Virus record (IMG/VR): IMGVR_UViG_3300006352_000013 | Span: 1 to 23,179 of that record | DNA: 23,179 nucleotides | Source of the DNA: a virus | Strand: one strand, 5' to 3' | In this document: positions 1,100-18,500 of the stretch, piece after piece | Layout: each line of letters opens with the position of its first letter | Numbering within the stretch: position 1 is the first letter of the stretch | Translations under genes and position numbers: made by a program | The notes under the pieces: generated by a model | What the model saw: only the letters and a program-made list of their open reading frames with translations | What the model was told of the DNA's origin: nothing | Databases searched by the model: none

Positions 1100-1333
1100 A
1101 TGAAAGATTCTCCTTACAAAGGCCTAAAGCCTACACCTGAAGATACTATAAAAATGTATCAGGTTCTAAAATTCTACTACCAAGACATAGACACATTACC
1201 TATGGCAGCGGTAGGGGAAATAATGAGAACTGAATTCGAGTGCGATTGCGGAGAGTTTGATGTATTTTTATATCTACATACCCTACAAATGAGGGACTTA
1301 GACGGAAATTTAATTTCAAATGAAATCCAGTGA
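1100..1333 (+). CDS. Unknown 77-residue protein
   Basis: First gene after the promoter-like box at 1044 and the hairpin at 1065-1097. The 77-residue product is acidic and shows no motif I recognise; it has a CDC pair near residues 50-52 and probable helices (EDTIKMYQVLKFYYQDI and AAVGEIMRTEFE). The ATG at 1100 is preferred because it is the first in the frame after the hairpin; the opposite-strand frame here is a shadow. The end overlaps the next frame by 14 bases. Position at the head of the replication operon suggests an early-expressed accessory or regulatory factor, but no function can be assigned. Confidence 0.6.
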   Translation: MKDSPYKGLKPTPEDTIKMYQVLKFYYQDIDTLPMAAVGEIMRTEFECDCGEFDVFLYLHTLQMRDLDGNLISNEIQ

Positions 1334-1502
1334 TTGCATAGAATGTGACGGAGAACCACTTACTTTATCAGAAGACCTTCTGATGCTGCTGAGTGAAGAA
1401 GAATTAGAGAAATACCTAAAGTGCGATGAAAATTACCTTAAACCTAACACGTTTAAAGGGAAGAAATCTTACACCGACCGAGTACACCTACTTACTTCTT
1501 AA
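1320..1502 (+). CDS. Unknown small acidic protein overlapping the next gene
   Basis: A 60-residue frame with an N-terminal CxxC pair (MKSSDCIECDGEP) and an acidic leucine-rich helix (LSEDLLMLLSEEELEKYL). It overlaps the preceding gene by 14 bases and the following gene by 77 bases in a different frame. The first 35 residues look like real protein. The tail, inside the overlap, is more basic and may be only the shadow of the next gene. Either the overlap is genuine or one start is misplaced. No function is recognised. Confidence 0.45.
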   Translation: MKSSDCIECDGEPLTLSEDLLMLLSEEELEKYLKCDENYLKPNTFKGKKSYTDRVHLLTS

Positions 1503-1965: not shown

Positions 1966-2930
1966 GCGAAGAAAACAAAGGCCTTAGATGGCGTCACATA
2001 TCCGAGTCAGCAAATGCTGCACTTAGATATATAGACGGCCGTAGAAAAGGAACAATCAAGTCGCTAAAGACCCCCTGGAAAAAGTTCAACCAAGTATCGA
2101 TGGGAGGAATCGAATGGCAATCAATTACCACTATCGCAGGAATGTCAGGTAGTGGTAAGACTAGTATTCTAGGTCAACTAGAGACTGGCCTTAAAGAATT
2201 GAATGCAGACCAAGAGTTCACTATCCTATCCTTTAATTTTGAGATGTTATCTTCTAGATTAGTGGGTAGGAAGTTAAGTAAGAAGCTTAACATAACTACA
2301 CAGCAATTATATAGTGCCATGGACGATTTCAGTCTTAATGACAACTACTATATGAATGCAGTGAAGGAAGCAAGAGAACTAGGGAAGCGTGATATATTCT
2401 ATGTGGATATACCTGGGAGTGTAGTACAGGTTAAAGACACTATAATGAATTTTGTAGAGGAGAAGAAACAGCCCGTCGTAGTCATGCTTGACCATACATT
2501 ATTGGTTAAGAAGATGGGAGGGGCCCAAGACAAGGATTTGCTCTATGAGCTGATGGCTATGTTTAATGGTTTGAAGAAAGAAATACGTATCTCAGTGGTA
2601 CTGTTATCTCAAATGAACCGTAATATAGAGTCATCTGACAGAGTTCAGAACCCTGACTTACACTTTCCTAAGAAGCAAGATTTATTTGGATCTGATGCAT
2701 GTTATATGTACTCAGACATAGTATTAGTATCACACAGACCTGAGCTATTAGGGATCAGATCTTATGGACCAAAGAGGTGGCCAACAGAAGGAGCAATCTT
2801 CTGGCACTACCTTAAAGTTCGTGAAGGAGAGCCTTGTATAGCTCTGATGGATAATGACCTCGCACACAATCAGATCCTAGACGCTACATCCCATTACGGA
2901 GGAGCTAAAGATGAAGATAAAGAAGTATGA
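1962..2930 (+). CDS. DnaB-family replicative DNA helicase (RecA-fold, SF4)
   Basis: The 322-residue product is a hexameric-type helicase ATPase that would unwind the fork ahead of the phage replisome. Visible motifs, in order: Walker A GMSGSGKTS (residues 60-68); the DnaB H1a-like SFNFEM (90-95) with catalytic Glu94; Walker B VVVMLDH with Asp177; the H3 sensor LLSQMNR (214-220); an H4-like stretch ending DLFGSDACYMYSDIVL; and KVREGEP near residue 285, at the place of the arginine finger (KNRxG in DnaB). At 322 residues it is shorter than bacterial DnaB (about 450-470) and lacks a typical DnaB N-terminal domain, as in many phage helicases. It starts inside the upstream stop (ATGA) behind a strong Shine-Dalgarno site. 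Downstream primase, SSB and resolvase genes support the role. Confidence 0.88.
   Translation: MSEENKGLRWRHISESANAALRYIDGRRKGTIKSLKTPWKKFNQVSMGGIEWQSITTIAGMSGSGKTSILGQLETGLKELNADQEFTILSFNFEMLSSRLVGRKLSKKLNITTQQLYSAMDDFSLNDNYYMNAVKEARELGKRDIFYVDIPGSVVQVKDTIMNFVEEKKQPVVVMLDHTLLVKKMGGAQDKDLLYELMAMFNGLKKEIRISVVLLSQMNRNIESSDRVQNPDLHFPKKQDLFGSDACYMYSDIVLVSHRPELLGIRSYGPKRWPTEGAIFWHYLKVREGEPCIALMDNDLAHNQILDATSHYGGAKDEDKEV
2893..2910 (+). promoter_or_regulatory. Shine-Dalgarno site within the helicase 3' end
   Basis: ATTACGGAGGAGCTAAAG ends right before the ATG at 2911 and holds GGAGGAG about 8 bases upstream of it. It shares ATTACGGAG and GAGCT with the site before the helicase gene. It supports choosing 2911 as the start although this overlaps the helicase gene by 20 bases. 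Confidence 0.6.
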
Positions 2931-3207
2931 GAAGCACGTATCTAGAGTTTTAATGAATAAACCTAAAGCTCGAGACTGTGATTATGTATTGTATGCATTT
3001 ATCCTACTTACCTTTGGTATTGATATGTCCACACTAACAGCTAAAGATTTTTTAAGAGGAATGAGTACCAAGTTGTACCCATCTTTTGAAGGAATCGGTA
3101 GATGTAGGAGGAAACTTCAAGAGAAACACAAAGAGTTAAGAGGGAAGAAATGGCTTGCAAGGCATAAAGAAGAAGAAGTAGTTAAACAAGAACTAAATTC
3201 AATGTAA
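2911..3207 (+). CDS. Conserved small basic phage protein, unknown function
   Basis: A 98-residue, strongly basic protein. It contains the pattern PSFEGIGRCRRKLQEKHKEL followed by RGKKWLARHKEEE, which I associate with a family of small phage proteins (PSxxSIxRxRRKxQE...LRG) found near replication and nuclease genes; their biochemical function is not known to me. The N-terminal half has a hydrophobic patch (YVLYAFILLTFGI) that is probably a buried helix rather than a membrane span. The start follows a GGAGGAG site and overlaps the helicase end by 20 bases; the stop abuts the next gene (TAAATG). Charge and the RCRRK helix suggest DNA or RNA binding, as inference only. Confidence 0.6.
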   Translation: MKIKKYEKHVSRVLMNKPKARDCDYVLYAFILLTFGIDMSTLTAKDFLRGMSTKLYPSFEGIGRCRRKLQEKHKELRGKKWLARHKEEEVVKQELNSM

Positions 3208-3885
3208 ATGGCACAAGAAGTATTAATAGTGGGGGCGAGTGGTACAGGTAAATCAACCTCTATCGAGAACCTCCCTGAAGCATCTACATTCATTGTGAAT
3301 GTAGGAGAGAAGTCACTTCCATTTAGGAAATCTAAGTCTAGATACCCTGCATGGAATAAGGACAATCCAGACGGTAGAATGGTTTCTACAGATTCATCTA
3401 ATGACATTCTTAAGATATTAAACTATATCGATGAGAAGCGTACAGAGGTGAAGTATATTATCATAGATGACTTTCAGTACTCTATGGCTAATGAATACAT
3501 GCGTAGAGCCAACGAAACTGGGTTTAAGAAGTTTACTGAGATAGCTCAGAATGCTTGGAGTATAATCAATCGTGTTAAATCGATGCGTGAAGATTTACTT
3601 GTAGTATTTATGATGCACTCAGAGGTAACCTTCGATGCTCATGGTAATAAGGTAACTAAAGCTAAGACTATCGGTAAGATGATGGACAACGTAGTTACTT
3701 TAGAGGGGATGTTTACCATTGTATTGTATACTGACGTAACTAAAGGAGACGACGCTATGGAGTATTCTTTTATTACTCAGAACGACGGAACAAATACAGG
3801 AAAGTCACCTAAAGGGATGTTTGAAAAAACGAAAATACCTAACGACCTGTTGGTAGTTAGTGAAGCTGTAGAGGCTTATCAATAA
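3208..3885 (+). CDS. AAA_24 / Sak4-like P-loop ATPase (recombination)
   Basis: This 225-residue ATPase starts immediately after the preceding stop. Walker A is GASGTGKST (residues 9-17) and Walker B is KYIIIDDFQ (82-90) with the acidic pair DD. A hydrophobic strand LLVVFMMHSEV follows at the sensor position, about residues 131-141. The compact RecA-like fold near 220-250 residues, with a nearby SSB gene, matches phage nucleotide-binding proteins of the AAA_24 (PF13479) type, to which Sak4-like single-strand annealing or recombinase ATPases belong. crAss-like phages commonly carry such a gene in the replication module. A role in annealing or recombination with the downstream RecB-like nuclease is inferred from context. 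Family assignment is fairly safe; the exact reaction is not. Confidence 0.75.
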   Translation: MAQEVLIVGASGTGKSTSIENLPEASTFIVNVGEKSLPFRKSKSRYPAWNKDNPDGRMVSTDSSNDILKILNYIDEKRTEVKYIIIDDFQYSMANEYMRRANETGFKKFTEIAQNAWSIINRVKSMREDLLVVFMMHSEVTFDAHGNKVTKAKTIGKMMDNVVTLEGMFTIVLYTDVTKGDDAMEYSFITQNDGTNTGKSPKGMFEKTKIPNDLLVVSEAVEAYQ

Positions 3886-3903
3886 ACCAGTAAATTAATT
3901 AAG

Positions 3904-4200
3904 ATGAAAGGTACAAAAAGAATTGTATGGACCCAAACGATGAACAACACTCTAGAGTCAGGGGTAAGAAGAAAATTACCATTAAGGCAGTTAGCTACAA
4001 AGTTAGGTGTAAGTAGAACAACTATACACAATAGGATTCAGTCTCTTAGAGGAAAGACACCTATTAAAGTTAGCACTAAACCAGTTAAAACCGTGGTAAC
4101 TAAACCTGCAGATAGCCTGACAGGAAATGTGACGCTAGTACACAAGAATTTCACGATGACTAGCAAAGGAAAGAACGTAACAATCACACTCAATCAATAA
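3904..4200 (+). CDS. Small helix-turn-helix DNA-binding protein
   Basis: The 98-residue basic product has a clear helix-turn-helix at residues about 27-48: LPLRQLATKLGVSRTTIHNR, with the usual A, G and V/S positions of the turn. The first 25 residues (RIVWTQTMNNTLESGVRRK) resemble the first helix of a three-helix homeodomain- or SANT-like HTH. After about residue 55 comes a Lys/Thr/Val-rich linker (TPIKVSTKPVKTVVTKPAD) and a short beta-rich tail. It could be a transcriptional regulator of the operon or a DNA-structuring factor; placement between a recombination ATPase and the SSB fits either. The gap before it is 18 bases and the start has an A-rich leader without Shine-Dalgarno. Confidence 0.7.
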   Translation: MKGTKRIVWTQTMNNTLESGVRRKLPLRQLATKLGVSRTTIHNRIQSLRGKTPIKVSTKPVKTVVTKPADSLTGNVTLVHKNFTMTSKGKNVTITLNQ

Positions 4201-4218
4201 CCATTAAAATTAAACATT

Positions 4219-4779
4219 ATGTACGGAAGTAACGTAGAAAGTAACTCAACAGGCGGATTAATGCCAGTAGTAGGTATCCAAGAAAATTGCGAATTAGTTA
4301 ACATCTCCCTAGATATGGGTAGTGGGGGTCGTTTAGACTTCGAATTCAAGCAATCAAATGGTGCAACAGTTAAGCATGCAGAATTTCCTGCAAACCCTGA
4401 CTTTGGTGACGTAGCTAAACAAGCTACAGATGTATCAAGACGTGTTAAGCATATTGCTACCAAGTGTATGAATGAAGCAGATTTTGTTGTAGATAACGTA
4501 TCTAGCTTTGAAGAATACGCTAACAAAGTGATCGCTTTATTCGGTAAGAAGTATGAAGGATTAAAGTTTAGAATGTTATTTATCTATAAAGGTAAGTATG
4601 TATCTGTACCTAAGTTCCCTAACTTTATCGAGTCTATGACTATATCGGAAGATAAGACAACAATCTATATTTCAGATTGGAACAGAGCTAAGTTGGTTAA
4701 GCCTACTCCTGATGGAGCAGCAGCTACAACCGCTCCAGCAGCAGTTACTGCAGGATCGAACAACGATATGCCTTTCTAG
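4219..4779 (+). CDS. Single-stranded DNA-binding protein-like
   Basis: The 186-residue protein ends NNDMPF after an Ala/Thr/Pro-rich disordered linker (residues about 160-180). This is the layout of bacterial SSB proteins, whose acidic tip (DDDIPF-type) recruits partner proteins. The body (residues 1-155) is rich in beta strands and aromatic residues (FRMLFIYKGKYVSVPKF), compatible with an OB fold, although the sequence is not close to E. coli SSB. Its place between the Sak4-like ATPase and the primase-like gene supports the role of coating single-stranded DNA during replication and recombination. The N-terminus MYGSNVESN closely resembles that of the next gene (MYGSKVVELN). Confidence rests on tip, linker and context. 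Confidence 0.65.
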   Translation: MYGSNVESNSTGGLMPVVGIQENCELVNISLDMGSGGRLDFEFKQSNGATVKHAEFPANPDFGDVAKQATDVSRRVKHIATKCMNEADFVVDNVSSFEEYANKVIALFGKKYEGLKFRMLFIYKGKYVSVPKFPNFIESMTISEDKTTIYISDWNRAKLVKPTPDGAAATTAPAAVTAGSNNDMPF

Positions 4780-4788
4780 TACTGTAAT

Positions 4789-5796
4789 ATGTACGGGAGT
4801 AAGGTAGTAGAATTAAATGCAATAGAGATTCTAGGGAGGATAACCTCCCTGGACATCTTTGTCTATTATTTAGGCAAAGAAGTAATGAATGGTGGAGCTT
4901 TTCACAGCCCTTTAAGAAAGGACTCGAAACCATCATTCACTATCTTTAGGCATAGAGATGGAACTTATTTATATAAAGATTTTAGCACAGGAGATGTAGG
5001 GGATTGCTTTACCCTTCTGAGCAAAATGTACGGACTCAACCACGGTGGGGTATGTAAACTTATAGATAATGATTTCCGTTTAGGACTATCTCAGACTAGT
5101 TTTTCAGCACCTACTAAGCAATTTGTAGGTTCGCATAATGAGAACTTAGAGAAGGATATGCCCTCTTCCACTACAATACAGATTAAATCTCGTCCATGGA
5201 ACTCAAGAGAAGATAAATCTTTTTGGGGTAAATATGGAATTACTTGTGAAATTCTTGAAGCCTACAATGTAAAAGCTGCTTTGGCAGTATTTGTAAATGG
5301 GGATCTAGCTGTAGAATCAAACAGGTATAACCCTATTTACGCTTATGATTTTGGTAACAGTAGGATGAAAATCTACCAACCATTTAGCAAATCTTATAAA
5401 TGGCTTAGTAATACTAGCTCAACTGACCTTCAAGGTTTGAGCCAAATCCCTGAAAAGGGTGACACGCTAGTAATTACTAAGTCATTAAAGGATGTTATGT
5501 GTTTGGCAGCGTTTGGAATCCCTGCTGTTGCGCCTTCCTCAGAGAGTTGTCTTATTCCAGAAGATGTTGTGAGCATGCTGTATAGTAGGTATGCTCGCAT
5601 CATTATTCTGTATGATTTTGACAGGACAGGAGTATCTTTTGCCAATAAGCATCGGAAACTCTACGGATTTGAGTGGCTTTTCATTACTAATGGTAAATTC
5701 AATACCTTTGACTACGAGGTTAAAGATTTTTCAGACTTTATAGAGAAGTTTGGAAGTAGAAAAGCCTCGGAATTAATTGAATACGCATGTCAATAG
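4789..5796 (+). CDS. DnaG-like TOPRIM primase-family protein
   Basis: The 335-residue product has two parts. Residues about 36-75 (FHSPLRKDSKPSF, then YKDFSTGDVGDCF) correspond to the CHC2-type zinc-finger region of DnaG but without its cysteine set; only one Cys remains. Residues about 226-320 form a TOPRIM domain: TLVITKSLKDVM in place of the usual EGxxD motif, IIILYDFDRTG with the metal-binding DxD (Asp275, Asp277), and DYEVKDFSDFI as the last acidic motif. The expected catalytic Glu is replaced (KS). The middle (FWGKYGITCEILEAYNV) is typical of primase-like proteins in Bacteroidetes phages as I recall them. It would prime DNA synthesis beside the helicase. The gene overlaps the next one by 10 bases. 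Confidence 0.75.
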   Translation: MYGSKVVELNAIEILGRITSLDIFVYYLGKEVMNGGAFHSPLRKDSKPSFTIFRHRDGTYLYKDFSTGDVGDCFTLLSKMYGLNHGGVCKLIDNDFRLGLSQTSFSAPTKQFVGSHNENLEKDMPSSTTIQIKSRPWNSREDKSFWGKYGITCEILEAYNVKAALAVFVNGDLAVESNRYNPIYAYDFGNSRMKIYQPFSKSYKWLSNTSSTDLQGLSQIPEKGDTLVITKSLKDVMCLAAFGIPAVAPSSESCLIPEDVVSMLYSRYARIIILYDFDRTGVSFANKHRKLYGFEWLFITNGKFNTFDYEVKDFSDFIEKFGSRKASELIEYACQ

Positions 5797-6155
5797 GAAT
5801 ATTTATACCAGGCAATGTCCCTTCTAGCAAGAATGGTAGAAGGTGGACAGGAAAGTACTTTATAGTTTCAAAGCAAACAGCTACGTACTATAAGGTATCG
5901 AAGGAAGAGTGGGAGAAAGGTAAGAAAGAATTTAAGAAGCTTCTTAAGGGTAAAACTAAACCCTATCAAGTTTCTTTTAAATTTATCAGGAAAAGTAAAC
6001 ACAAGTTCGATTACATCAATCCAGCCCAGACGGTTCAAGACCAGATGGTTAAGTTTGAATGGGTCGATGACGATAATGCAGATGAGATTGTCCCTAGTTT
6101 TGAGGAGTTTGAATACGACAAAGAAACGCCAGGAGTATATATTAACGTGTTATAA
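5787..6155 (+). CDS. RusA-like Holliday junction resolvase
   Basis: A 122-residue protein matching the size of RusA (about 120). The N-terminus FIPGNVPSSKNGRRW is the usual RusA-family opening strand and SKN motif. The acidic residues lie in the expected pattern: Asp75 and Asn78 in FDYINPAQ, Asp85 in VQDQM, and Asp94-Asp96 in WVDDDNADEIV. In RusA the DxDN, D and DD residues bind the metal ions that cleave four-way junctions. It would resolve replication and recombination intermediates before packaging. It starts inside the primase gene (10-base overlap). The first Asp of the canonical DxDN reads DYIN here, so the spacing is slightly different; catalytic competence is likely but not certain. 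Confidence 0.72.
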   Translation: MSIGIFIPGNVPSSKNGRRWTGKYFIVSKQTATYYKVSKEEWEKGKKEFKKLLKGKTKPYQVSFKFIRKSKHKFDYINPAQTVQDQMVKFEWVDDDNADEIVPSFEEFEYDKETPGVYINVL

Positions 6156-6166
6156 TAAAATAACTT

Positions 6167-6301
6167 ATGTTTAAAGTAGAGATTACTTATTCAGAGGAGT
6201 TTAGGGCTAAGTGCTTTAACAACCTTAGATTCTATATGGATATAGATTACTCATATCTGCAATGGATCATCAACGCCATAATATTGTTAGGTATTATTTA
6301 G
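6167..6301 (+). CDS. Possible 44-residue small protein
   Basis: An open frame from ATG 6167 to TAG 6299-6301 lies in the otherwise empty 6156-6261 stretch, preceded by an A-rich leader (AATAAAATAACTT) after the resolvase stop. The product begins MFKVEITYSEEFRAKCF and ends in a hydrophobic run, WIINAIILLGII, that could anchor in the membrane. It overlaps the next frame by 40 bases. Gene-sized density and leader favour it, but nothing else supports it. Confidence 0.35.
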   Translation: MFKVEITYSEEFRAKCFNNLRFYMDIDYSYLQWIINAIILLGII

Positions 6302-6501
6302 AGGATGCAGTAGATGATGCAGAACTTTATGATTCTAAAATAGAAAGCGAGGAAGATAGAAATGTAGCTATAGAGAAAATACACGCGCACACTGTAAGGA
6401 AAGAACTTTATAGTGAATTCATGGTATTATTACTTAACGCAGAAGACGAAAAAGATGAACGAATCAAAACCAGATTACTTTCAAAGGGAAGAGGTCTCTA
6501 A
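6262..6501 (+). CDS. Unknown 79-residue acidic helical protein
   Basis: A small acidic protein predicted to be nearly all helical (VRYYLEDAVDDAELYDSKIE, then EEDRNVAIEKIHAHTVRKEL), so a coiled coil or helical bundle is likely. It lies between the RusA-like and RecB-like nuclease genes, overlapping the latter by 47 bases if that gene starts at 6455. No motif or family recognised. The acidic character and position might suit a nuclease-modulating partner, but that is only a guess. Confidence 0.55.
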   Translation: MDHQRHNIVRYYLEDAVDDAELYDSKIESEEDRNVAIEKIHAHTVRKELYSEFMVLLLNAEDEKDERIKTRLLSKGRGL

Positions 6502-7441
6502 TAGTGACCTAACTAACCTTAGAATATCACCAAAGACCTTCTTGATGAAGAAGCAAGGACAGATGAATAAAACATCTAAAGCCCTTGAGCTAGGTACACT
6601 TATACATAGGTGGAACTTAGAGCCTGAGTTGTTTGCACTAGCAGATGTAGAACCCGTGACAGGAAAGATGGGTAAATACATTCAGGCTATGTCTGAACTA
6701 ACAAAAGGATTAGATTTAGACGAGAAAGGTCTTAGAGAGATGGGAGAGACAGCTTATATGCTAGCTCAGTATAAAGAAAGCTCCCTCAAGAAGACTACAG
6801 CATTTAAAAGTTTTCTAGAAAAGCCTGAGAACCAAGCTTACTACAATTTCCTACTTACCTCTGACGGTAAGATACTAATGACTCAGCAAGACAAGAACAT
6901 TGTAGAAGGATGTAGTACTTCATTGAGGTCCCACGTCGTAGCTAACAAGCTTGTATTTGGAGAAGACCTTGAATCTCATAACGAGGTTGAAGTATATTTC
7001 CAGCAGCACGGAGTTATGTGTAGATCAAAATTAGATAGAGTAGTTGTAGACCATGATAACAAGAAAGTTACATTGGTAGACCTCAAGACTTCCAGTAAAG
7101 ATGTATACGGTGAGTGTACTAAAGTAGCAGATACAGGATTCTTAACACGTGATTACCACGCTACAGGATTTATGTTCTCTTGCTTAATGTATTCTTACTA
7201 CCGTCAGATAGCTTTTTACGAGAACGCACTTAGAGCTGAATACCCAGGATATGAAATAGAATCATTCTTGGTAGCTATAAGTACCTCTGGTACAGGAGAT
7301 ATTGCTGTATACAAAATGCCTGCAGCATGGATAGAAGAAGGGCAGAAACAGATTGAGAACACTCTTAATGAATACAAAAAACATCAAGAGACTCAAGTTT
7401 GGGACGTTAAAGCAGGATTTGAAGGAGTAGTAACTTATTAA
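6455..7441 (+). CDS. RecB-like PD-(D/E)XK nuclease
   Basis: A nuclease of the RecB/RecE-type PD-(D/E)XK superfamily, 328 residues from the chosen ATG. Motifs visible: GTLIHRW (residues 47-53) with the conserved His51; HNEVEVYF around 175-182; the catalytic KLD with Asp194; VDLKTS with Asp209 and Lys211; and QIAFY with Gln251 and Tyr255 (the QxxxY motif). This full set (H, D, DxK, QxxxY) defines RecB-family exonucleases. In phages these 5'-3' exonucleases often work with a single-strand annealing protein; the Sak4-like ATPase and SSB-like protein upstream would be natural partners. The frame also opens at a GTG at 6413, but ATG 6455 is preferred because it follows a purine-rich GAAGACGAAAAAG leader and shortens the overlap. 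Confidence 0.82.
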   Translation: MNESKPDYFQREEVSNSDLTNLRISPKTFLMKKQGQMNKTSKALELGTLIHRWNLEPELFALADVEPVTGKMGKYIQAMSELTKGLDLDEKGLREMGETAYMLAQYKESSLKKTTAFKSFLEKPENQAYYNFLLTSDGKILMTQQDKNIVEGCSTSLRSHVVANKLVFGEDLESHNEVEVYFQQHGVMCRSKLDRVVVDHDNKKVTLVDLKTSSKDVYGECTKVADTGFLTRDYHATGFMFSCLMYSYYRQIAFYENALRAEYPGYEIESFLVAISTSGTGDIAVYKMPAAWIEEGQKQIENTLNEYKKHQETQVWDVKAGFEGVVTY

Positions 7442-7456
7442 TCCTTATAAGACATC

Positions 7457-8026
7457 ATGAAGAGAGACGGAGTAGAAAGACAGATGTTTAATAAATCCTA
7501 CACCTATATACAACCATTATTAAGTGAGTATATGGAGGTTAGAAAAGAAGGATTAATTAATGTGTTCATAGGCAGCACAGAATACCCTAAGTATACAAAT
7601 AATATATTTGTGCTATTTAGGTATTCAGGAGAGTTAGATTTTGTACGATATGAGGACTATGTGGAAACAAGCCCCTTATTTGTAGCGAAATACGACCCTG
7701 ATAAGTATCATGTGATGTTTATATTTAGGGTGCCCCCAAGGTACCAGGAAGTTTACGATAACTTTAAAAAGGGACAGTATTCTAAATTTCCTAAGCCGTA
7801 TAAGGCCTTAATATTCAAATACCACAACATTATAGACAGTAATCACAAAGTAGCTAAAGTTCTGTATAAGCATATAGACTTACGTGAGGACTTAGAAGAA
7901 CGCTTAGGGACCTTCCTACCAGAAGGGTCTGAAGTTTCCTCTATACCTGACCCATCTCTAGAAGTTTATACAGAGAGTATGAAAATAAAAGACCCTTTAA
8001 CACCTAACGAAACCCCATTTGAATGA
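7457..8026 (+). CDS. Unknown 189-residue protein coupled to rIIA
   Basis: I do not recognise this gene. The product is mixed alpha/beta with many aromatic residues (NIFVLFRYSGELDFVRYEDY, PLFVAKYDPDKYHVMFIFRV) and an acidic, proline-rich C-terminal tail ending PLTPNETPFE. There is no P-loop, cysteine cluster, signal peptide or membrane segment. It is flanked by the RecB-like nuclease (15-base gap) and rIIA (ATGA overlap), so it is cotranscribed with both. The tail ending in a hydrophobic-acidic 'TPFE' is loosely similar to an SSB-type tip, but not convincingly so. Confidence 0.6.
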   Translation: MKRDGVERQMFNKSYTYIQPLLSEYMEVRKEGLINVFIGSTEYPKYTNNIFVLFRYSGELDFVRYEDYVETSPLFVAKYDPDKYHVMFIFRVPPRYQEVYDNFKKGQYSKFPKPYKALIFKYHNIIDSNHKVAKVLYKHIDLREDLEERLGTFLPEGSEVSSIPDPSLEVYTESMKIKDPLTPNETPFE

Positions 8027-10434
8027 AAATATTACAACAGAATAACGTCGATGAAGTAATTGGCGTTCAGAAACAGCACAAATTTAAGATCACAGATCAA
8101 TCTCAGGCTATCATTATGGATAGCCTGATTAATCTGTACTCAGACCCAATTGGGTCAATAGTGAGAGAGATAACTTCGAATTGTATCGATGCTAACCGTG
8201 AGAGAGACCTGAAGATAGAGGGTAAGATCCCTAAAGATGAGGGAGATGACCAGTTATTCTGGAGCTCTAAACAAACAGTTAGTATTGAATACGTAGAGAA
8301 GAACACAATTCTAGGGATAGATGAGTGTATGATGTTCCATGACCATGGCTGTGGTTTATCTGAAGATAGAGTAGCGAATGTATTTACTACATTTGGTGCT
8401 TCTACTAAGAGAAACAACAACTATGAAATTGGAGGATTTGGGTTAGGAGCGAAATCTCCATTAGCCTATACAGAAACATTCTATGTCCGAAGCAGACATA
8501 ACGGAACAGAGACTTATTACATGTTATACCGTAATAATGATAATGTACCGCACATGGACCAAGTGTACCAAACCTCAACAGAGGAAAAGAATGGCTCTAC
8601 AGTAATCGTACCTATTAAAGAGTATTATGATAAGAGTAAATTCAGAGACGCTATTAGTGATCAACTTTGTTTCTTTGATAACATAGTCTTTAAAGGTGTG
8701 GTAGAAGGTTTAGGGCGTATCACTAAGTATTATGGTAAAGACGGACACAAATCTGTAATCGAAGAGAAAGATGGCTTTCTTCTTACTAATGATGGTAAGC
8801 AGGTAGACCTACTCGTAGGTAGAGTTGTATATCCTATCAACTGGGACCAACTGGAATTGGATGAGTACGATTACAAAGCTAGTATGTGTGTTAAGTTTGA
8901 CATAGGTGTACTTGATTTAGTCCCTTCTAGGGAATCTATCAGATACACTCCTAAGACTATCTCTGTAATAGAGGCTAAGTTTAAGGCAGTTAAGGCTGAA
9001 TTTGGAAAAGATGTATCTACAAAGTACGCAGGAGTAACTAACTACATAGATTTCATAAAATCTACAGGTAGTATAAACTCAGGCAGTAGATATAATACTT
9101 TGAATAGTAATGACCCTTTGGCTATTAAAGCCTCTATGGGAAATCTTTCTATGACAGATATTACATTCTCCCCTACACCAAGTATGTCTCCTAAAAACCC
9201 TGCAGACGCAGTAGGAGGATTCCATCACATATTCAATGGTATTCACATCTTTAGGATAGGTATTTCTAACAATAGTAAAGCTGTTGGAGGGAAGACAATC
9301 TCTAGGGTAGAAGTAACTAGTTATTCAGAATTATCTAATCTGTTAGATAGCTCTGACTGTATCTATCATGTAGAGGGTAACTTCAACACCGCTAAAGAAG
9401 CAGCTATATTAGCTGAAAAGGATTATTTCCTATGCTTCAAAGCTAGTAAGGATAAGTTTGGGGCTAGAGTAGATGCTGTTAAGAGCAATTTGAGAGATTC
9501 TAGAGCGGAGTGGCAACAAACCACTATGTACAACTCTACCTTAAAGCACTTGAAAGCGTACTCTGGGTACAGTGACTACAATGCTGTGGAAGAATTAGAG
9601 CTAGATGACCAGTTTGGTGATATTGTAGACAATAAAACTAGACGTAAGCTTAATAAGGAAGTCTTTGCTCGTAGAGCGTATGTATCTTCTGGGTACACTA
9701 TGGAAATTAAGTATAACAACTATGAGTATAAAATCTCTAACCTTCAAGAGAAGATTGAGGCTGAGGATGATCGCCTTAAGTATGTTATATACGCAGAGAG
9801 CTGTGATGAAGAATGGTTAAAGAAAGCTATAATAGTAGTATCTTCTTCTACAATAAACAGGGAATCTAGGTACTACAGCGATCTTTATGATATGAGTAGT
9901 AATGTACTATGTTTTAAGGTTGCAAAGAGTGTAGCTAAGGATTTCAAGAACCTAGAAGGATTTATTAACGCTAAAGATTTATTTATGGAAACCAAGAATC
10001 ACCACAGACTAACTCATTTTTGTACTGGACATCGAATAAGTCAAATGATAAGTAAAGTTAGATTCTTAAATGAATTTAGCGCTCTTCACCCTCCTTTGCA
10101 TTTAGCTTACAGAAACCTATTCAGATATGAAAAGGACCATAGATGGAACGTATGGAATGAGAATGCAGTGAATGCTGTGATGTTGGAAGTGCTTAACATA
10201 CCTGGAGTTGATGAAAAGGTTTTAATAGACCAAGACATAGCTAAAGATATGGAAGACACCTTAGCATACACAGACAGTATCCAACTACTTAACTACGTGT
10301 CATTTAATAGCTCGGAAGCTTGGGAATGTGTGCAAGATTTCCTATCTTTAAAAGGTAAACCCTTTGGAGAGGGCCTTACAATAGAGGTAGAGGAGAAAAT
10401 AGAAGAAGAATCAACAGAAACAATAACCGTTTAA
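8023..10434 (+). CDS. rIIA: RIIA-like GHKL ATPase
   Basis: An 803-residue homologue of T4 rIIA (725 residues). The N-terminal GHKL (Hsp90-type) ATP-binding domain is clear: N-box REITSNCIDANRERD (residues 48-62, Glu49, Asn53), G1 box DHGCG (107-111), and G2 box GGFGLGAKSPLAY (137-149) forming the ATP lid. The rest resembles a long MutL/Hsp90-like body with no membrane span. In T4, RIIA and RIIB act together at the inner membrane, prevent the lambda Rex exclusion response and influence lysis inhibition. The next gene is rIIB, 11 bases downstream, so the pair is intact. It begins inside the preceding stop (ATGA). Identification rests on ATPase motifs plus the adjacent rIIB. Confidence 0.85.
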   Translation: MKILQQNNVDEVIGVQKQHKFKITDQSQAIIMDSLINLYSDPIGSIVREITSNCIDANRERDLKIEGKIPKDEGDDQLFWSSKQTVSIEYVEKNTILGIDECMMFHDHGCGLSEDRVANVFTTFGASTKRNNNYEIGGFGLGAKSPLAYTETFYVRSRHNGTETYYMLYRNNDNVPHMDQVYQTSTEEKNGSTVIVPIKEYYDKSKFRDAISDQLCFFDNIVFKGVVEGLGRITKYYGKDGHKSVIEEKDGFLLTNDGKQVDLLVGRVVYPINWDQLELDEYDYKASMCVKFDIGVLDLVPSRESIRYTPKTISVIEAKFKAVKAEFGKDVSTKYAGVTNYIDFIKSTGSINSGSRYNTLNSNDPLAIKASMGNLSMTDITFSPTPSMSPKNPADAVGGFHHIFNGIHIFRIGISNNSKAVGGKTISRVEVTSYSELSNLLDSSDCIYHVEGNFNTAKEAAILAEKDYFLCFKASKDKFGARVDAVKSNLRDSRAEWQQTTMYNSTLKHLKAYSGYSDYNAVEELELDDQFGDIVDNKTRRKLNKEVFARRAYVSSGYTMEIKYNNYEYKISNLQEKIEAEDDRLKYVIYAESCDEEWLKKAIIVVSSSTINRESRYYSDLYDMSSNVLCFKVAKSVAKDFKNLEGFINAKDLFMETKNHHRLTHFCTGHRISQMISKVRFLNEFSALHPPLHLAYRNLFRYEKDHRWNVWNENAVNAVMLEVLNIPGVDEKVLIDQDIAKDMEDTLAYTDSIQLLNYVSFNSSEAWECVQDFLSLKGKPFGEGLTIEVEEKIEEESTETITV

Positions 10435-10445
10435 AAACAAAACAA

Positions 10446-11453
10446 ATGAATTATTTAGTAGCAAAACTTACACCGACAGATGTAACAGTTATTATCAATG
10501 GTAATCACAAGAGAATCCGAAAGGATTCTCCTGATTCCTCAGAAGTCATCGAATTGGTAAAACTACATAACGCCAGTAATGTAGCCCAAGAACGCGAAGA
10601 CATCGTTACAAAGATAGAAGAATTATGCAACCCTGCAAAGAAAATTGAACTTAGAAGTGATGGAAGGTTCGAATTTGATGGTACATCTGCTATGTACCTT
10701 AAAGGGACAAGTGATGCTATCCCAGAATTCTTAGCTAAGAAGTTACTTAAGTACATCGACGATAAGCTTGATGTAGAGCCTTTAGTTAACTTCTGGAAGA
10801 ACGTGCTTCTTAACCCTGATAAAGCTGTTAGACAACAGCTATTTGGCTTCTTGGAGCACAATGGTCACCCTATAACCGACAAAGGTTATTTCTTAGCGTA
10901 TAAGGCAGTGCAAGTAGCCCGTAAATACGACGTAGAAACAGGTGAAGAGATTATCAGCGTTAGTTATGACGGAGATACAGGAGAGAGAGTTGAGGAAGTA
11001 TTGAATCAATCAATGACCTTCAAACCTTATCACTCAGGTTCTCACGGAATGGTAGTTAAAGTAGGTGAGCCTATAACTATGCCAAGAGAGAACTGTGACT
11101 CTGATCCTTACCGAACTTGTTCTTCAGGTTTACACGTAGGGTCTATGGAGTATGTACACGATTTTGGATACCATGACGGAGTTATCTTAGAGGTACTAGT
11201 TAGCCCTCGTAATGTTGTTGCAGTCCCAGAGGATTACAATAACACTAAGATGAGATGTTGTGAATATTATCCAATTGCCATCACAAATGGTAATAACGAG
11301 AATATCTACCTAGAATCTGATTACCAAGCTATTGATCACAATAACTTGGAAGCAGATTTAGAAGATTATGAAATCTCTAAATTAGAGGTTATCAACGAGA
11401 TTGAGAGAGAGCTTTCTGAACGAAGAGCTGTCGCTAAATCTATCACAGATTAA
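10446..11453 (+). CDS. rIIB: RIIB-like protein
   Basis: A 335-residue homologue of T4 rIIB (312 residues). The match is strong in the C-terminal two thirds: LFGFLEHNGHPITDKGYFLA parallels T4 LFDFLVANDIEITEDGYFYA; TMPRENCDSDPYRTCSSGLH parallels its KMPRxxVNDDDxQTCSRGLH; and AVPEDYNNTKMRCCEY parallels SIPIDYNDAKMRTCQY. The T4 N-terminal helix-turn-helix is not evident. It presumably acts with the adjacent RIIA-like ATPase at the membrane against superinfection exclusion. The start follows an A-rich leader (AAAACAAAACAA) without Shine-Dalgarno, and the gene ends in a double stop TAATAG. It is the last gene of the plus block, right before the terminator. Confidence 0.88.
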   Translation: MNYLVAKLTPTDVTVIINGNHKRIRKDSPDSSEVIELVKLHNASNVAQEREDIVTKIEELCNPAKKIELRSDGRFEFDGTSAMYLKGTSDAIPEFLAKKLLKYIDDKLDVEPLVNFWKNVLLNPDKAVRQQLFGFLEHNGHPITDKGYFLAYKAVQVARKYDVETGEEIISVSYDGDTGERVEEVLNQSMTFKPYHSGSHGMVVKVGEPITMPRENCDSDPYRTCSSGLHVGSMEYVHDFGYHDGVILEVLVSPRNVVAVPEDYNNTKMRCCEYYPIAITNGNNENIYLESDYQAIDHNNLEADLEDYEISKLEVINEIERELSERRAVAKSITD

Positions 11454-11476
11454 TAGTTATTGGTTGGTTGATTGTT

Positions 11477-11520
11477 AAAAGGGGGAAGGTAAATGCTTAG
11501 GCGTTTATCTTCCCCCTTTT
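11477..11520 (+). terminator. Bidirectional intrinsic terminator between converging blocks
   Basis: A 20-bp stem (11477-11496 with 11501-11520, loop TTAG) starts AAAAGGGGGAAG and ends CTTCCCCCTTTT, followed by TATTTTT. Both strands therefore have a G/C-rich hairpin plus a U tract. Two positions are G-U wobbles in the plus transcript but A-C mismatches in the minus transcript, so the hairpin is stronger for the plus block. It lies between the rIIB stop and the end of the minus-strand structural gene. Confidence 0.92.
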
Positions 11521-11952: not shown

Positions 11953-14900
11953 TTATAATTTTAAATATTTAAGAGAGGACTCTATGTCTCTGTCTAGTTG
12001 TTTAAATATAGGTAGAATATCTCTAAACTCTTTACCTAATTTTGTTCTTCCTTTTCTTTTTCCTCTTTTGTAAATCTCAAGGTCTCCATTAGCTATATCT
12101 CCTCCAAGCTGAGCTAACACTTCTGCAGCGCCTTCAAGCATTGATATTGAAGCAGCAGGATTCTTAAGAATTAAGAAAGTTTCCAAAGGCCACATATAGA
12201 ATGAAAGCTCTGAATATAGCCTTCTAGAATAGAATGCTAAAGACATAAGCTGTCTTCTTTTTATTTCGTCATCCTCATCTGATGCTATACCTAAAGCTAA
12301 TACAGATAAGGTGTAGGATAGAACTACACTCACAGCTTCAGATACTGTTCTGTGTATCGCAGACTTCTCTCTAGCAGATAGCTGATGCCAGTTGTCTTGC
12401 ATCTTAAGTCCTGAACCAAGGTTGAATATTGATTTACCTAAAGAGGTTACATATCTAATAGTCTCAGTGTACTGACCATAACTCATATCTTCAGAGTGTC
12501 TACTGTAGTATAAATCCTCAGCTGTAAGGTCATCTCTACTAGTAAATACCTGCCCTATACCTCTATATCTTTTTAAAACACCTGGGCCTAACCATTTACG
12601 CATCATAAGTACAGCTTTACCTGAAATAGTTTTCTGAAAGTGAGACGTATTTTTAGAGTCATAGTTACCATTCATATAGTAATTAAGCTCTAGCAGTGCA
12701 TCTTTAATTCTAAACTCTGCATTTAAAAGAGCCTTAGGATTACTAGCATCCAATGTTCTGCCCGTTTTAAGCTCTATAGACCCTAAGTCTATATCTTTTC
12801 TAACCTCTAACTTACCATCAACAGTTTCGTACATCTCATCCATAGACATAGCTCTGTCTCTGCCCTCAACTACTTTACCATCTTTATTTATATACTCTCC
12901 TTTAGAGTTTTTAACTTTAGCAGCATTCATATAAGAATACATAAGTAGATGTTGAACATAATGCTCTCCCATACCATGGAATCCATGAAGTGCCCCTGCG
13001 TCAAAGTTCTGACTTAAGCCTGTGGCTGCCATAAATCTCTTAGCGGATACTGACCAGTCTTGCATTGCCTGGAAACGCTCTCCTAGTAAGTTAGTCTTTG
13101 CTTTAGGTCTTATACGACCTATATCTCCAAATATCTGCCCATTAGCAGCATCTGATGCATATTTTCCTATAGCAGTTATAGCGTCTCTTCCTCCGAAGTC
13201 TACTCCATAGAACAAACCCGACCCTGACTCTATAAATAACATTGTAGAGGCTTGATTAACAGATGCTATTGCGGAGTACGCGTTAAGCATAAGCATTACA
13301 TTTCCAGTCCAAGCCATAACAGCTGAAGCTATCTTGTTTGCCTTAGGACTTCCTAATTGCTTAACACCATACAACCTTGAAGATATTAAACTCTCTAATG
13401 CAAAGTATGTGTTAGATTGCTTACCTCCTACTGTCTCATGCTTAAGTACTGTGGTTCCATCCTCAAGAGTAATCTCTTGGGCCTTTCTTTTACCATTATA
13501 GTTAGGGGACGCTCTTCTAAGATCACTTCCAACTGCTCCTCTAAGAACCTCCAACTCTGGGGCCACCATACTCTTCTCTACGAAGTTTACAGATCCCCAA
13601 TAATCCATTAGAAGCACTGAAGCTAAATCAAAAGACTGTTCCTCTAAAGGAACTATATCATCTTTTCTGTAGTATACAGGTATACTCTCCTGAACCTTAC
13701 CACTCTCATCTAAGGATGCGTGAAGTAATTTCTGAACATCGTACCATTTTTTATTAGCTGTTGCGTCATTATGCTCAACATGATAATCAATGTCTTCCCC
13801 TGTAATATGGAATTTATCTTTGTATATCCTTTTAATAGCTGCAGTTGCACCGTCCTCAAAAGTAGTCTCCATTACAGTCTTCTGTAGGGCAGGCAGTTTC
13901 ATACCTCTACCTCTTCCGCTTAACATAGGATAATTCCTATCTCTCTCAGAAATCATCTCTCTAAAGAACCAGTACATTTTGTAATCTATGTTCTCTTTAT
14001 TTTTCGAGTCTGCAAAGAAATCATACTGAGGGTCTAACCATTTATCTTTAACTATAAAGGTATTTGTCTTGTAATCCCAAGTATTAGTGTTGGCGTCCAT
14101 CCAAGTTTTAAAAACCTTGTTGGCTTCTTTATAGAAAGCACTTTCTATACCATGCTCTTTCTTAGCTTCTGCTCTAGCCTTGTTAACTATAGCCCTAGCC
14201 TCCCAAAAAGGCCTACCAATTCTATCTACTAGGTATTTAGTTACTTTTCCATCCTTGTCTTTAGCAATCATGGGGTCATATAACTTCTGTTGGTCTGTAG
14301 TATTCTTACCTTTAATAAACTCCTTCCATATGGCATGTAACTCTGAAGCCTTATTAACCGTGAGTCGCATCACATTATAATCCGCTATATCTAAAAGCTC
14401 TACAGCCATAGATATAAGATCGTTATTCATATTCCTTGCATCCATTATTATTGAATGCAATTTCCCTAAATCTTTAGGGTCGTTAGAAAGTAATTGTTTG
14501 ATATGGTCAACCTCTTGCTGCCTTACATCAGCAGCTGACTTCTCCATAAGATTGGCTACATAAGCTGCCTTATCTTTTTTATACTGAGCCTTCAATTCCG
14601 CACCTTTCAGGTTTGAGTTCCTCTCATACTCACTAAAAACAGTGAAAGAATTCCCAAAATCTCTAATAGCTATGGCAGTCATTTTACCTGGAATATTTCC
14701 CCATTTCTCAGCTATAGCATTTATAGCAGCTATATTAAATGAAGTTTCCAGTTTAGCTTTCCTAGCAGCTAGCCCTTTGTAATCTAACTTCTTACCTGTT
14801 AAGGAATCTGCAGCAGATACAACCTCCTTTAATGCAGGATCACCCTCTACAGATTGAAGTACATCCTCTAACCCAGAGAAAAAGGATAACCTTGTATTGT

Positions 14901-15549
14901 ATTCAGCTATACTCTCCACATTAAACGCTCCTGCATACTCTAAAGATAGTTCCGCACTAGCCATAAGAGAATCTACTGTATCTAGATAAGTTTTTATAGC
15001 AGCAAGTTCTACTTGAGTCTCTAAGGCCCCCTTAAGTTCTTTAAGTTCCTCTAGATATGCTCTACGATTAAGTTCAATCTGAAACTGAGCAAACTCTTCT
15101 GGAGTTGCAGTCTCCCTCATAGCTTCTACAATTTCTATATCTGAATCTGACAAAGAAGCCATCTTAGTTTGGTTGAGTTTTCGGATACGTTGTATAACTC
15201 TAACCTGCATATCCTGCACAATCTTACTAGTGGTTGTAGGTTTGAACACCTCATGCTCTAAATACAGAGTAGTAGCTTCAAAATCTTCTACTTTCTTATC
15301 TTGTTGTCTTAATGTCTCCTTTAAAGCAGCTAAAGTAGGCTCTCCATTCTTATGGACTCTACCTTTAAACCGACTAGCGTGGGCATCCCCTTCACCAGAA
15401 AGCTGATTTATTGCTTCCCAATCCCCAAACTTATGTTTAAATCCAGGGGTGTGTGCGTGGGCCCACAAGACATCAGCTCTACTGCTTATGTCTTTGTTTG
15501 AGTCATTCTTTAACTCTGTGTATAACTTACTATCTAGTTTACAACTCAT
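11953..15549 (-). CDS. Giant virion-associated protein (1198 residues) after the RNA polymerase
   Basis: The gene starts 1 base after the polymerase stop and encodes a 1198-residue protein. The N-terminus MSCKLD is followed by TPGFKHKFGDWE (34-45) and KNGEPTL (67-73), the linker that precedes ADP-ribosyltransferase domains in phage polyvalent proteins; the same pattern occurs near the start of the upstream polymerase. Residues about 75-350 are charged and helical. Two hydrophobic stretches, about 735-765 (AWTGNVMLMLNAYSAIASV) and 1066-1090 (VVLSYTLSVLALGIA), could insert in a membrane. A basic motif MMRKWLGPGVLKRYRG lies near 986. Synteny with crAss-like giant genes suggests a packaged cargo or ejection protein forming part of the transcription or DNA-entry apparatus. 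That role is inferred; no enzymatic motif was found. Confidence 0.65.
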   Translation of the reverse strand: MSCKLDSKLYTELKNDSNKDISSRADVLWAHAHTPGFKHKFGDWEAINQLSGEGDAHASRFKGRVHKNGEPTLAALKETLRQQDKKVEDFEATTLYLEHEVFKPTTTSKIVQDMQVRVIQRIRKLNQTKMASLSDSDIEIVEAMRETATPEEFAQFQIELNRRAYLEELKELKGALETQVELAAIKTYLDTVDSLMASAELSLEYAGAFNVESIAEYNTRLSFFSGLEDVLQSVEGDPALKEVVSAADSLTGKKLDYKGLAARKAKLETSFNIAAINAIAEKWGNIPGKMTAIAIRDFGNSFTVFSEYERNSNLKGAELKAQYKKDKAAYVANLMEKSAADVRQQEVDHIKQLLSNDPKDLGKLHSIIMDARNMNNDLISMAVELLDIADYNVMRLTVNKASELHAIWKEFIKGKNTTDQQKLYDPMIAKDKDGKVTKYLVDRIGRPFWEARAIVNKARAEAKKEHGIESAFYKEANKVFKTWMDANTNTWDYKTNTFIVKDKWLDPQYDFFADSKNKENIDYKMYWFFREMISERDRNYPMLSGRGRGMKLPALQKTVMETTFEDGATAAIKRIYKDKFHITGEDIDYHVEHNDATANKKWYDVQKLLHASLDESGKVQESIPVYYRKDDIVPLEEQSFDLASVLLMDYWGSVNFVEKSMVAPELEVLRGAVGSDLRRASPNYNGKRKAQEITLEDGTTVLKHETVGGKQSNTYFALESLISSRLYGVKQLGSPKANKIASAVMAWTGNVMLMLNAYSAIASVNQASTMLFIESGSGLFYGVDFGGRDAITAIGKYASDAANGQIFGDIGRIRPKAKTNLLGERFQAMQDWSVSAKRFMAATGLSQNFDAGALHGFHGMGEHYVQHLLMYSYMNAAKVKNSKGEYINKDGKVVEGRDRAMSMDEMYETVDGKLEVRKDIDLGSIELKTGRTLDASNPKALLNAEFRIKDALLELNYYMNGNYDSKNTSHFQKTISGKAVLMMRKWLGPGVLKRYRGIGQVFTSRDDLTAEDLYYSRHSEDMSYGQYTETIRYVTSLGKSIFNLGSGLKMQDNWHQLSAREKSAIHRTVSEAVSVVLSYTLSVLALGIASDEDDEIKRRQLMSLAFYSRRLYSELSFYMWPLETFLILKNPAASISMLEGAAEVLAQLGGDIANGDLEIYKRGKRKGRTKLGKEFRDILPIFKQLDRDIESSLKYLKL

Positions 15550-15550: not shown

Positions 15551-18500
15551 TTAGCATTTATTAATGTGTGGCGCAGTTAATCTTACTACTTGTGAATAAT
15601 GTAAAGGCTGTCGCAAGGTAGTTAAAAATTCTGTTAACCTCTCCGCGTGGCCTTCCTCTTTTTTGCTTAAGAGTCTGTAACCAGTATTGTTAGAGTCATA
15701 TATACTCGCCCACTTAGCACTCGCTACAGAGTCAGAATTAAAATTAAACTCATTCAATTTTACTCCTCCTTTACCTCTATAACCTAAAGGGTCTCTAGAA
15801 ATATATATAGGGTTACCTGAAATTTTATCCTCTCCTGCGAACTCATACAGCATAGGAGTGTCTTTCCCTTGATTTGTAGTGAATATAGGTTTGCCGTTTT
15901 TACCTAACTTACCTGTGGAAGTTGTTGTAGATTCTCCTTGTATGTCGAATCTGATAAACTTTTTATAAATAATAACAGCAGGCTTACCTTCTGTTTTAGG
16001 TATAGTTTTAGACACAGCTACTTTCTTTGCAGGAAACTTTAATTCCACAGCTAGCGCTCTAGGGAGAGTTAATTTCTTTCCTTTATTAAGTCCTGAGACT
16101 TTATTATCTACCTCTCCTCTATATATATTCCATACGCCATCTGTGTCTGAGAAATCCTCTACAAAAGATTTATTATCAAACTCATGTCTCAGTATTTGAG
16201 ATACCATCTCCTGGAGATATATTCCCGAGCCTTCGCTTCTTAGTACATCTGTAGTATCTTTTACATACTGAGAGAACCCACTATCAATACTCCACTGCAT
16301 TGGTATCATTTTATGGAAAGAAGCTAAAGAGTCTCCAAAACCAGAAGATGAAAACGCCATTCTAACTAATTTACTAGCAAACTTAGCAGTATCCTTGTTC
16401 AAGTACATCTCTTCCCATTCTCTGTAGGCTAAATTCATAACATCTGCAGGGACACTTTTAGTACCTCTAGCAGTAATGTAGCTAGGGTTTTTAAATTCCC
16501 CTTGTCCATTGTGGTTTAACTTACTCCCCAGGAGGCCTAATAGAATACTATTTGGTCTTTTCTCTTGCATAATTCTGAACTCCCTAACAAATGCTGCGTT
16601 ATCTTCTGAATTAAATAATAATCCCTTAGATACAGAGTCCATATCCATACCTCTACTGAAGAACCCACTATACACATAGGAATACATCTTATCCACAATC
16701 CTTGTACGAAGGTCAACATCTTGTGAACCGATATTACCTGTAACGCCTAATATAGCGTTAAGCCCATTCTCCATAAATGGAGAGTTAGATAGGAATTCAC
16801 CTTCGAAGGTATTTAATAGGAAATCTACAGAGTTTTTATACTGTGTTTCCAAAGTTGTATCAGTGAACTTATTAGTGAATCCTTCAAATACAGTACTGTT
16901 ATCTGCTTCTATTTTCTTTTCTCTCATTACCGCTGCCTCTATAAGACTCTTACCTGCAGCTTTAGTACTCACCTTAGTAGCAAGTAGTTGAGAGAATACA
17001 GGATCTGCAACATCTTTAAGATCTTGGAACTTATCTAATATATACTCCTGTAGCTCATAAAAGTCATCCGAAGAGTTATCTTTTAGTAGTCTATTTAAAA
17101 TAGGTATAGTTAATTTATCTTCTAACCTTACCTCCTCTTCTACTTTTTCTTCTACTACCTCCTCAGTCTGCGTTTTTAAGGACTCATTAATCTCAAGAAC
17201 CTCAGCTACTTGTTTTTCAAACTCCTCACTGAACACAATATTAGAAGGAATTTCATTCCCTTGGTAGACAGTAAACATCTCTGCCATCTCTTCTCCTGTG
17301 TACCCATTAAGGTTTGTGCCTGAGTAGTCATTAACTAGATATTCCTTTTCAGGATTCTCTCTTGCAACATTATACAGCTGCTCAATGCTATCTGCTATAT
17401 CATCCTCAGAGATAGATCGCATTCCTTTATTTTCTGTAACCCTTAAATCTTTAGTAGGTAACGCGTAGGACTGTCCTTGCATTCCTTCTCCTTGGCCGTA
17501 TATAGCTCCGAAATTCATAGCAGCTTTGGCTGCACCTTTACCATGCTTTCCCTCAGGATTACTCCCGAACACAAACACTTGGTTATCTTCAAGCTTAGTT
17601 ACAAAGCCTGAGTATGTCTTTCTAGCTCCAATTACTTCTGCTTTAGGGAAGAACGCAGCTTTAGTCCTTGTTAGTGCTTCTTTAAATCCTTTCTTTCCTG
17701 GAAGAGACTCACTACCTAAGGCGTTCATTTGATCTGAAAGCTCTCTCAATATAGGTTGAGCTAAGAATCTATTTACCCATCTATAATCTACCCCTGCTCT
17801 AAGTAATAGGAATCCTATATTAGATGTGTTAGGGTTGAAGTTAGTGTAGTATATATAAGGATCTTTCTCAATATCCACATTGGCGTTCATATACGCAGAT
17901 AAAAGCTGTGTTATAAAGTGACTCTCATTTTCAGATTGCTCTTCATGTAGAGAAGTTCTCCATAGAGGCTCTTCAGCAGTTCCTAGATTAAATCTATGTC
18001 CAATCCCAATGTCTGAGTTAAGGTAGAATCCTGATTGAGTAGAGTTCACTTGGTCTACAATATTGTTAGCTACTGCAGCTACCATCTTTTGACCTATGAT
18101 AAATCTCTCTCTTAGTGCTTCCTGGTAATCAGGGCTTATCATTTTAAGCCCTAGCATTAAATCTTTACCTTTAGAGTCTGTTTCAGGGTTGTTGCTTTCT
18201 ATTAACTTTCTAATAGCATTAGCGTCATCTTTAAGGAAGCTAGCATCCGTAGGGTACATAACCTGAGCCATGTTATCCTTACTTTGTAGTGCGTCTTCCC
18301 ACAACTCTATCCTTCTATTCTCTAGTGATTTCTTACCTTCCTCATTAGAAGGTACTCTAACTAGGTTTCCTGTGTTTCCGTGTGCTGGTCCATCTATTCT
18401 AAGATTAGGTAGTAATAAGAATACTTTATCAATATCAAAATCACTCCCTGTCTTAGCTGTGATGTCTTCGTACACTACAATGGTGTCTCCCATCTCTTCA

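Follow-up and report, generated by a model that had tools for sequence, protein, structure and literature searches.

A mobile macro-like domain in the virion RNA polymerase of crAss-like phages

The virion RNA polymerase encoded on a 23179-base IMG/VR virus fragment of a crAss-like phage (hereafter the window) contains a macro-like domain. The domain is a mobile cassette inserted into a flexible acidic linker of the polymerase. Its insertion, fold and homology, a conserved lysine, and the gain, loss and exchange of the cassette are all results of computation. We slightly favor the view that the domain is an active ADP-ribosyl hydrolase, delivered with the virion and exchangeable between phages, that would strip host-added ADP-ribose from phage DNA or from the polymerase.

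The polymerase and its inserted domain

The polymerase can be assigned to the crAss-like virion RNA polymerases by homology and by its catalytic motif. Residues 59–1686 match the solved virion RNA polymerase of phi14:2 (6vr4) with an E value of 1.4e-95, and the protein carries the DFDID motif, of which DFD.D is invariant across 23 aligned polymerase cores. Together with a 1198-residue gp076-like protein, the 2396-residue polymerase constitutes a transcription block on the minus strand (Table 1). The phi14:2 polymerase belongs to the same family and shares the gene order with a gp076-like second protein. A Pfam scan of the gp076-like protein of the window gave no match, and no ADP-ribose domain was found in it. 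The plus strand contains replication-type genes for a DnaB-like helicase, an AAA_24 ATPase and a PD-(D/E)XK nuclease (DUF3799), as well as a weak Toprim match and a GHKL-like ATPase. The latter is a weak GHKL ATPase (HATPase_c) match in an 803-residue protein of the replication block (8023–10434, plus strand).

The record of the phi14:2 polymerase homologue lists it as a structural protein by mass spectrometry (MS/MS), and passages of PMC7886860 cite its packaging and injection. By analogy, the polymerase of the window phage would also be packaged and injected. Several GenBank crAss records (L003, L008, L009 and others) label virion RNA polymerases as DNA helicase, DprA-like, exonuclease V or nuclear pore complex protein-like. 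Some of these labels may be a sign of further cargo domains.

The inserted domain is a full-length member of the family known as A1S_2505 phage non-structural protein (NCBIfam NF049995), phrog_2072 or N4 gp14 (PHA00684). It matches phrog_2072 over nearly the full length with an E value of 1.8e-31, and NF049995 with an E value of 1.8e-30 and 105.4 bits, above the curated cut-off of 45. Judged by sequence comparison, the family match is far beyond chance. All 76 rows of the domain alignment, which comprises the window and IMG/VR loci, match NF049995. A Pfam search with the domain yielded no significant match, and hits to DUF5724 and other Pfam entries at E values of about 0.01–0.03 were dismissed as chance.

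Homologues of the domain are present in 217 phage records. Most members known so far are small, functionally uncharacterized proteins that stand alone, whereas the window copy is embedded in a giant virion RNA polymerase. N4 gp14 is annotated as such in several Schitoviridae and belongs to the same macro family; in this group (L018, L270, L271, L272) it lies just upstream of the RNAP1/RNAP2 genes. In PhAPEC7, JWDelta, PGN829.1 and PA26, the gp14 gene is immediately upstream of the second N4 RNA polymerase genes. The family is thus tied to phage RNA polymerases also in an unrelated phage group, there by gene neighborhood. Homologues also occur in bacterial records (L107–L186), including Nostoc plasmids, many Brachyspira and Bacteroidales MAGs. 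One record named Acinetobacter phage MD-2021a (L020, CAKLQH020000006) has a homologue amid uvrB, rarD and a diguanylate cyclase and resembles a bacterial chromosome.

A sequence-only reading of the window had delimited the domain at residues 1715–1850 (nucleotides 17599–17192) by four motifs, and both its coordinates and its motifs hold. VFVFGSNPEG (1722–1731), GKGAAKAA (1734–1741), QSYALPTKD (1757–1765) and GYTGEEMAEMF (1813–1823) each occur once. The proposed distance of about 285 residues past DFDID amounts to 281 residues counted from the start of DFDID, and the view that the family normally stands alone is borne out by phrog_2072 and N4 gp14. The domain was also said to be bounded by a Glu/Val-rich linker; the linker is present, but on the C-terminal side only.

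Table 1. Features of the transcription block in the window.
Feature	Position	Strand	Basis
crAss-like virion RNA polymerase, single-polypeptide two-barrel type, 2396 aa	15551..22741	-	6vr4 homology
Catalytic DFDID, residues 1434-1438	18428..18442	-	Exact motif position and alignment of polymerase cores
A1S_2505 / phrog_2072 / N4 gp14-type domain, predicted macro fold, residues 1715-1850, between conserved polymerase blocks	17192..17599	-	Family match, fold, DarG/TARG1 profile, insertion
N-x-x-G-x-H-G-x-G-A-A loop, aligned as the macro GxG loop, residues 1728-1741	17519..17560	-	Conservation; aligned with DarG
Lys1764 in QSYALPTKD	17450..17452	-	Aligned with catalytic Lys80 of Thermus aquaticus DarG
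Acidic Glu/Val-rich linker EEVVEEKVEEEV, residues 1860-1871, C-terminal side	17129..17164	-	Common to the domain-less homologue L189
Second transcription-block protein, 1198 aa, phi14:2 gp076 homologue	11953..15549	-	blastp E 1.8e-73

Fold, branch and active-site residues

An AlphaFold model of the window domain, based on 76 sequences (the window plus IMG/VR loci), has a pLDDT of 95 and a pTM of 0.88. A Foldseek search of the PDB gave 15 matches with E values of 0.001 or lower, all of which are macro domains; Chikungunya nsP3 matched at 4e-4. The VIA-align Z scores are 11.0 for TARG1, 10.8 for TTHA0132, 10.4 for YmdB and 9.6 for DarG, where values within 1 are tied. A standalone member modeled on its own alignment (pLDDT 92) ranks TARG1 first with a Z of 11.2 and DarG near the top with 10.5. 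The top PDB matches of the models, with Z of 10–11, are macro domains or designed proteins on macro scaffolds. As modeled, the domain adopts the alpha/beta fold of the macro domain superfamily. Neither the domain nor its profile retrieved a macro domain in sequence searches of the PDB; the relationship was found only by fold and profile–profile comparison.

Sequence profiles separate the branches of the superfamily better than the fold does, and the placement in the DarG/TARG1 branch is therefore based on profiles. The DarG and YmdB queries used were verified by comparison with PDB chains or with records that carry a macro-domain annotation. The standalone rows match the DarG/TARG1 profile with an E value of 2.5e-8 and a probability of 95%. 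The full family aligns with DarG/TARG1 by hhalign with an E value of 4.5e-5, compared with 0.0033 for the best of 100 column shuffles. The NCBI DarG model is matched by 5 of the 76 domain rows (best E 8.9e-6). The comparison with the YmdB/MacroD-type profile gave an E value of only 0.07, and affiliation with that type was rejected. These comparisons argue, at the level of profile homology, for membership of the DarG/TARG1 branch. The earlier macro-like assignment was right at the level of the fold: the high-confidence model has a macro fold, and the family can be aligned with the macro domains of DarG/TARG1, including the position of their catalytic lysine. Its suggestion of an ADP-ribose 'reader or eraser' needs narrowing: the domain is macro-related, and its profile places it in an 'eraser' branch instead of marking it as a generic reader.

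The loop after the second conserved strand contains a GxG motif (HGKG, 1733–1736) and aligns with NTVGVMGKGVA of DarG. N1728 and G1736 are conserved in all 191 aligned rows, H1733 in 190 and G1734 in 164 of the 191. The PTK sequence of the family is aligned with PTK80 of Thermus aquaticus DarG, with T and K matched in both profile comparisons, and K1764 of the window occupies the catalytic-lysine position of the DarG/TARG1 branch. In TARG1, the counterpart of DarG K80 is K84, the catalytic lysine after the central strand. K80 of DarG is catalytic and needed for catalysis (PMC11543638). A lysine is found at this position in 45 of 47 large-ORF (mostly polymerase-fused) copies versus 87 of 144 short-ORF copies, a contrast with a Fisher p of 1e-6, which ignores relatedness and near-duplicate rows. 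A sizeable share of the standalone copies has T, V or M in place of the DarG-type lysine.

The first strand, which bears the adenine-contacting Asp/Asn (GD/GN), is missing. The standalone model aligns only from residue 25–28 of TARG1 and residue 12–13 of DarG, and N4-type members begin with M-IFVFGSN. The adenine-contacting Asp/Asn is common, though not known to be universal, among divergent macro domains; our claim is therefore limited to fold and homology and does not extend to a canonical macro site. The family has GCGLAGY or TNLNGY where TARG1 places its catalytic Asp after GCGL. DarG also has no Asp after GCGL, so this residue is specific to TARG1. In all, the window domain resembles TARG1 and the macro domain of DarG, the DarTG2 antitoxin, in fold, GxG loop and lysine after the central strand, and differs from them by the missing first strand and the fusion to a polymerase. 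The family further differs from DarG in an invariant His where the DarG loop has Met and in having no DarT-binding C-terminal domain. The window domain is not a DarG antitoxin proper, as it is embedded in a polymerase and the scanned window proteins contain no DarT-type domain.

Insertion, gain, loss and exchange

Homologues without the domain delineate a clean insertion. The polymerase of L189, whose core is 46% identical to that of the window, retains the same flanks but lacks the domain that separates them in the window: KTKKDFFPK is followed by the Glu/Val-rich linker and ELTVPVLEDLL. The phi14:2 polymerase also has no domain; its counterpart of window residues 1689–1902, 214 in number, is just 42 residues long. 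In an IMG/VR sample selected on the basis of the core alone, the domain is present in about 8 of 80 polymerases (L211, L219, L227, L257, L258, L214, L235 and, partially, L220). The domain is not intrinsic to the polymerase, given its absence from most crAss-like homologues, including phi14:2 and L189. The sequence-only reading would have fallen had an intrinsic domain without macro fold been present in all homologues. That a polymerase-intrinsic domain was mistaken for a macro domain is extremely improbable, and is refuted by this absence, the clean insertions and the macro fold; no support for it was found.

The domain precedes the core in cr112_1, cr116_1, L033, L035, L040 and L050, and follows it in the window, frurule, cr50_1 and many others. 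The sequence-only reading knew of no description of the fusion, and none was found for a macro fusion to a crAss-like polymerase in the open-licence full texts searched. The fusion is not confined to the window: dozens of giant phage polymerases have it, at differing positions. The polymerases of Kolpuevirus frurule (L006) and cr126_1 (L007) are identical at 1962 of 2242 aligned positions (87.5%). Their only large indels are a 147-residue macro piece in frurule and a 164-residue (123 + 41) NADAR insert in cr126_1. The frurule macro domain is 76% identical to that of cr112_1, which is located at the opposite end of the polymerase, and the two polymerase cores are 30% identical. Between the window and its nearest relative, L011, dS is 0.14 in the domain, 0.70 before it and 1.08 after it; in this one pair, the domain value is the lowest of any sliding stretch along the gene, suggesting a recent cassette exchange between related phages.

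On a polymerase-core tree of 114 tips and 34 carriers, with two contigs entered twice, the presence of the domain needs 25 changes (shuffle mean 29.6, range 25–34). The tree is poorly resolved and thus displays a patchy distribution rather than an exact number of gains. A domain tree based on few columns needs 16 changes between fused and standalone states, against a shuffle mean of 33.

ADP-ribose writers and erasers of three unrelated folds are attached to this one kind of virion protein. The window protein contains the polymerase and macro domain only, whereas L028 (IMGVR_UViG_3300033571_009510; 1–11508, plus strand) has macro, NADAR and ART. Its single open frame is sequentially composed of the core, a macro domain (3012–3130), a NADAR domain (3158–3277) and an ART-PolyVal domain (3545–3672). 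ART-PolyVal also shares a polypeptide with the macro domain in L068 and in cr116_1 (residues 248–376). L235 (3–15809, plus strand) encodes a 5268-residue frame that is open only when TAG is read as an amino acid (glutamine), with the core at 3080–3513 and the macro domain at 4115–4242; in converted coordinates, a NADAR match lies at about residue 4770–4880 and ART matches lie in the next gene. ART-PolyVal is above cut-off in only 4 of 24 macro-carrying records. It is absent from the window fragment and from the frurule and cr112_1 polymerases, and ART is also found without a macro domain. Among 50 polymerase-bearing records, the PF18760 and PF08719 cargo domains are rarer than a fixed slot predicts.

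A possible counter-defense role

As polymerases of this type are packaged and injected, the domain would reach the host with the first phage DNA. It would enter with the injected virion polymerase and use Lys1764, as DarG uses Lys80, to hydrolyze ADP-ribosyl links. ADP-ribose set on phage DNA or the polymerase by host ADP-ribosyltransferases such as DarT would then be removed before phage gene expression. NADAR, the DarT1-paired eraser, would meet the same need in related polymerases. The gain, loss and swapping of domains among polymerase relatives suggests that phages deliver an antidote to host ADP-ribosylation defenses with the polymerase. The target is probably a DarT-like attack on DNA; DarT is found in 18 of 247 Bacteroidales genomes. 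Macro and NADAR domains are alternative antitoxins of DarT systems, for thymine and guanine ADP-ribosylation, respectively (PMC11543638). The NADAR antitoxin of DarTG1 reverses DarT-type ADP-ribosylation, and the NADAR/macro exchange between DarTG1 and DarTG2 parallels that between cr126_1 and frurule. Possible, but held only tentatively, is a general cargo system in which phages exchange DarG-type macro cassettes (for thymine) and NADAR cassettes (for guanine) according to which DarT type their host has. The de-ADP-ribosylase would ride on the polymerase and clear the template during the first transcripts, a transcription-coupled anti-defense repair.

The missing adenine-binding Asp/Asn and first strand, the absent second catalytic residue of TARG1 and the lysine replaced in many standalone members all speak against hydrolysis. 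The same missing strand and replaced lysine would be expected if the domain were a non-catalytic module that binds ADP-ribose or nucleic acid and only tethers or regulates the polymerase. We consider this very unlikely: large-ORF copies retain the lysine in 45 of 47 cases, and NADAR, whose fold is unrelated but whose chemistry is similar, takes the place of the domain in a near-identical polymerase, which indicates an enzymatic role common to both. Phage macro domains have also been argued to prefer soluble ADP-ribose derivatives and mostly to counter them (PMC9503650). The domain could accordingly hydrolyze or sequester a soluble compound, such as the cyclic ADP-ribose signal of TIR-type systems, ADPr-1''-phosphate or O-acetyl-ADPr, with the polymerase tether serving for entry only. 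Macro domains do act on soluble derivatives, and a free position before or after the core is what mere delivery would predict. This explanation is nevertheless unlikely, because the profile is nearest to the DarG/TARG1 branch, for which ADP-ribosylated DNA or protein is among the substrates tested (PMC11543638), and not to the YmdB type, and because one or few copies per virion would make a poor sponge.

As several carriers code for an ADP-ribosyltransferase too, the domain may instead target a product of the phage itself. The macro domain would then be the immunity partner of a phage effector, guarding the phage against its own co-injected ADP-ribosyltransferase by cleaning the polymerase or phage DNA. 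The shared polypeptides of cr116_1, L028 and L068 and the adjacent gene in L235 fit such a pairing, but the low share of macro carriers with ART-PolyVal, the polymerases without ART and the ART without macro domain make self-protection quite unlikely. We thus retain the removal of host-added ADP-ribose as the preferred role.

Polyvalent proteins, which include an N4-type virion RNA polymerase fused to ART (Iyer 2017, PMC5512222), are likewise injected multidomain virion proteins that combine an RNA polymerase with ADP-ribose chemistry, if the window protein is injected as we infer. The window polymerase, however, is of the unrelated crAss two-barrel type, and its kind carries an eraser (macro or NADAR), sometimes with ART. 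The text of PMC5512222 has no NADAR, crAss or macro-domain passage. Iyer 2022 (PMC9503650) describes macro, NADAR and ART domains packaged in virions and does not mention crAss phages. Yutin 2021 (PMC7886860) describes crAss transcription proteins as multidomain, and its text contains no reference to macro, NADAR or ADP-ribosylation. The anti-DarT factors AdfA and AdfB also counter DarT-type ADP-ribosylation (PMC11481870). AdfB is a separate gene product made during infection, whereas the window domain would arrive with the virion.

crAss-like phages are among the most abundant human gut viruses, and to our knowledge little is known of how they escape host defenses. The pair frurule and cr126_1, whose polymerases differ chiefly in macro versus NADAR, constitutes a natural experiment in which the idea can be put to a direct test, and frurule, isolated from Bacteroides cellulosilyticus, is available in culture. 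By model and profile, the N4 gp14 and A1S_2505 family gains a predicted fold and a likely chemistry. An active domain would mean that an anti-defense enzyme is built into a phage protein that is among the earliest at work in the cell, where it could operate before phage gene expression.
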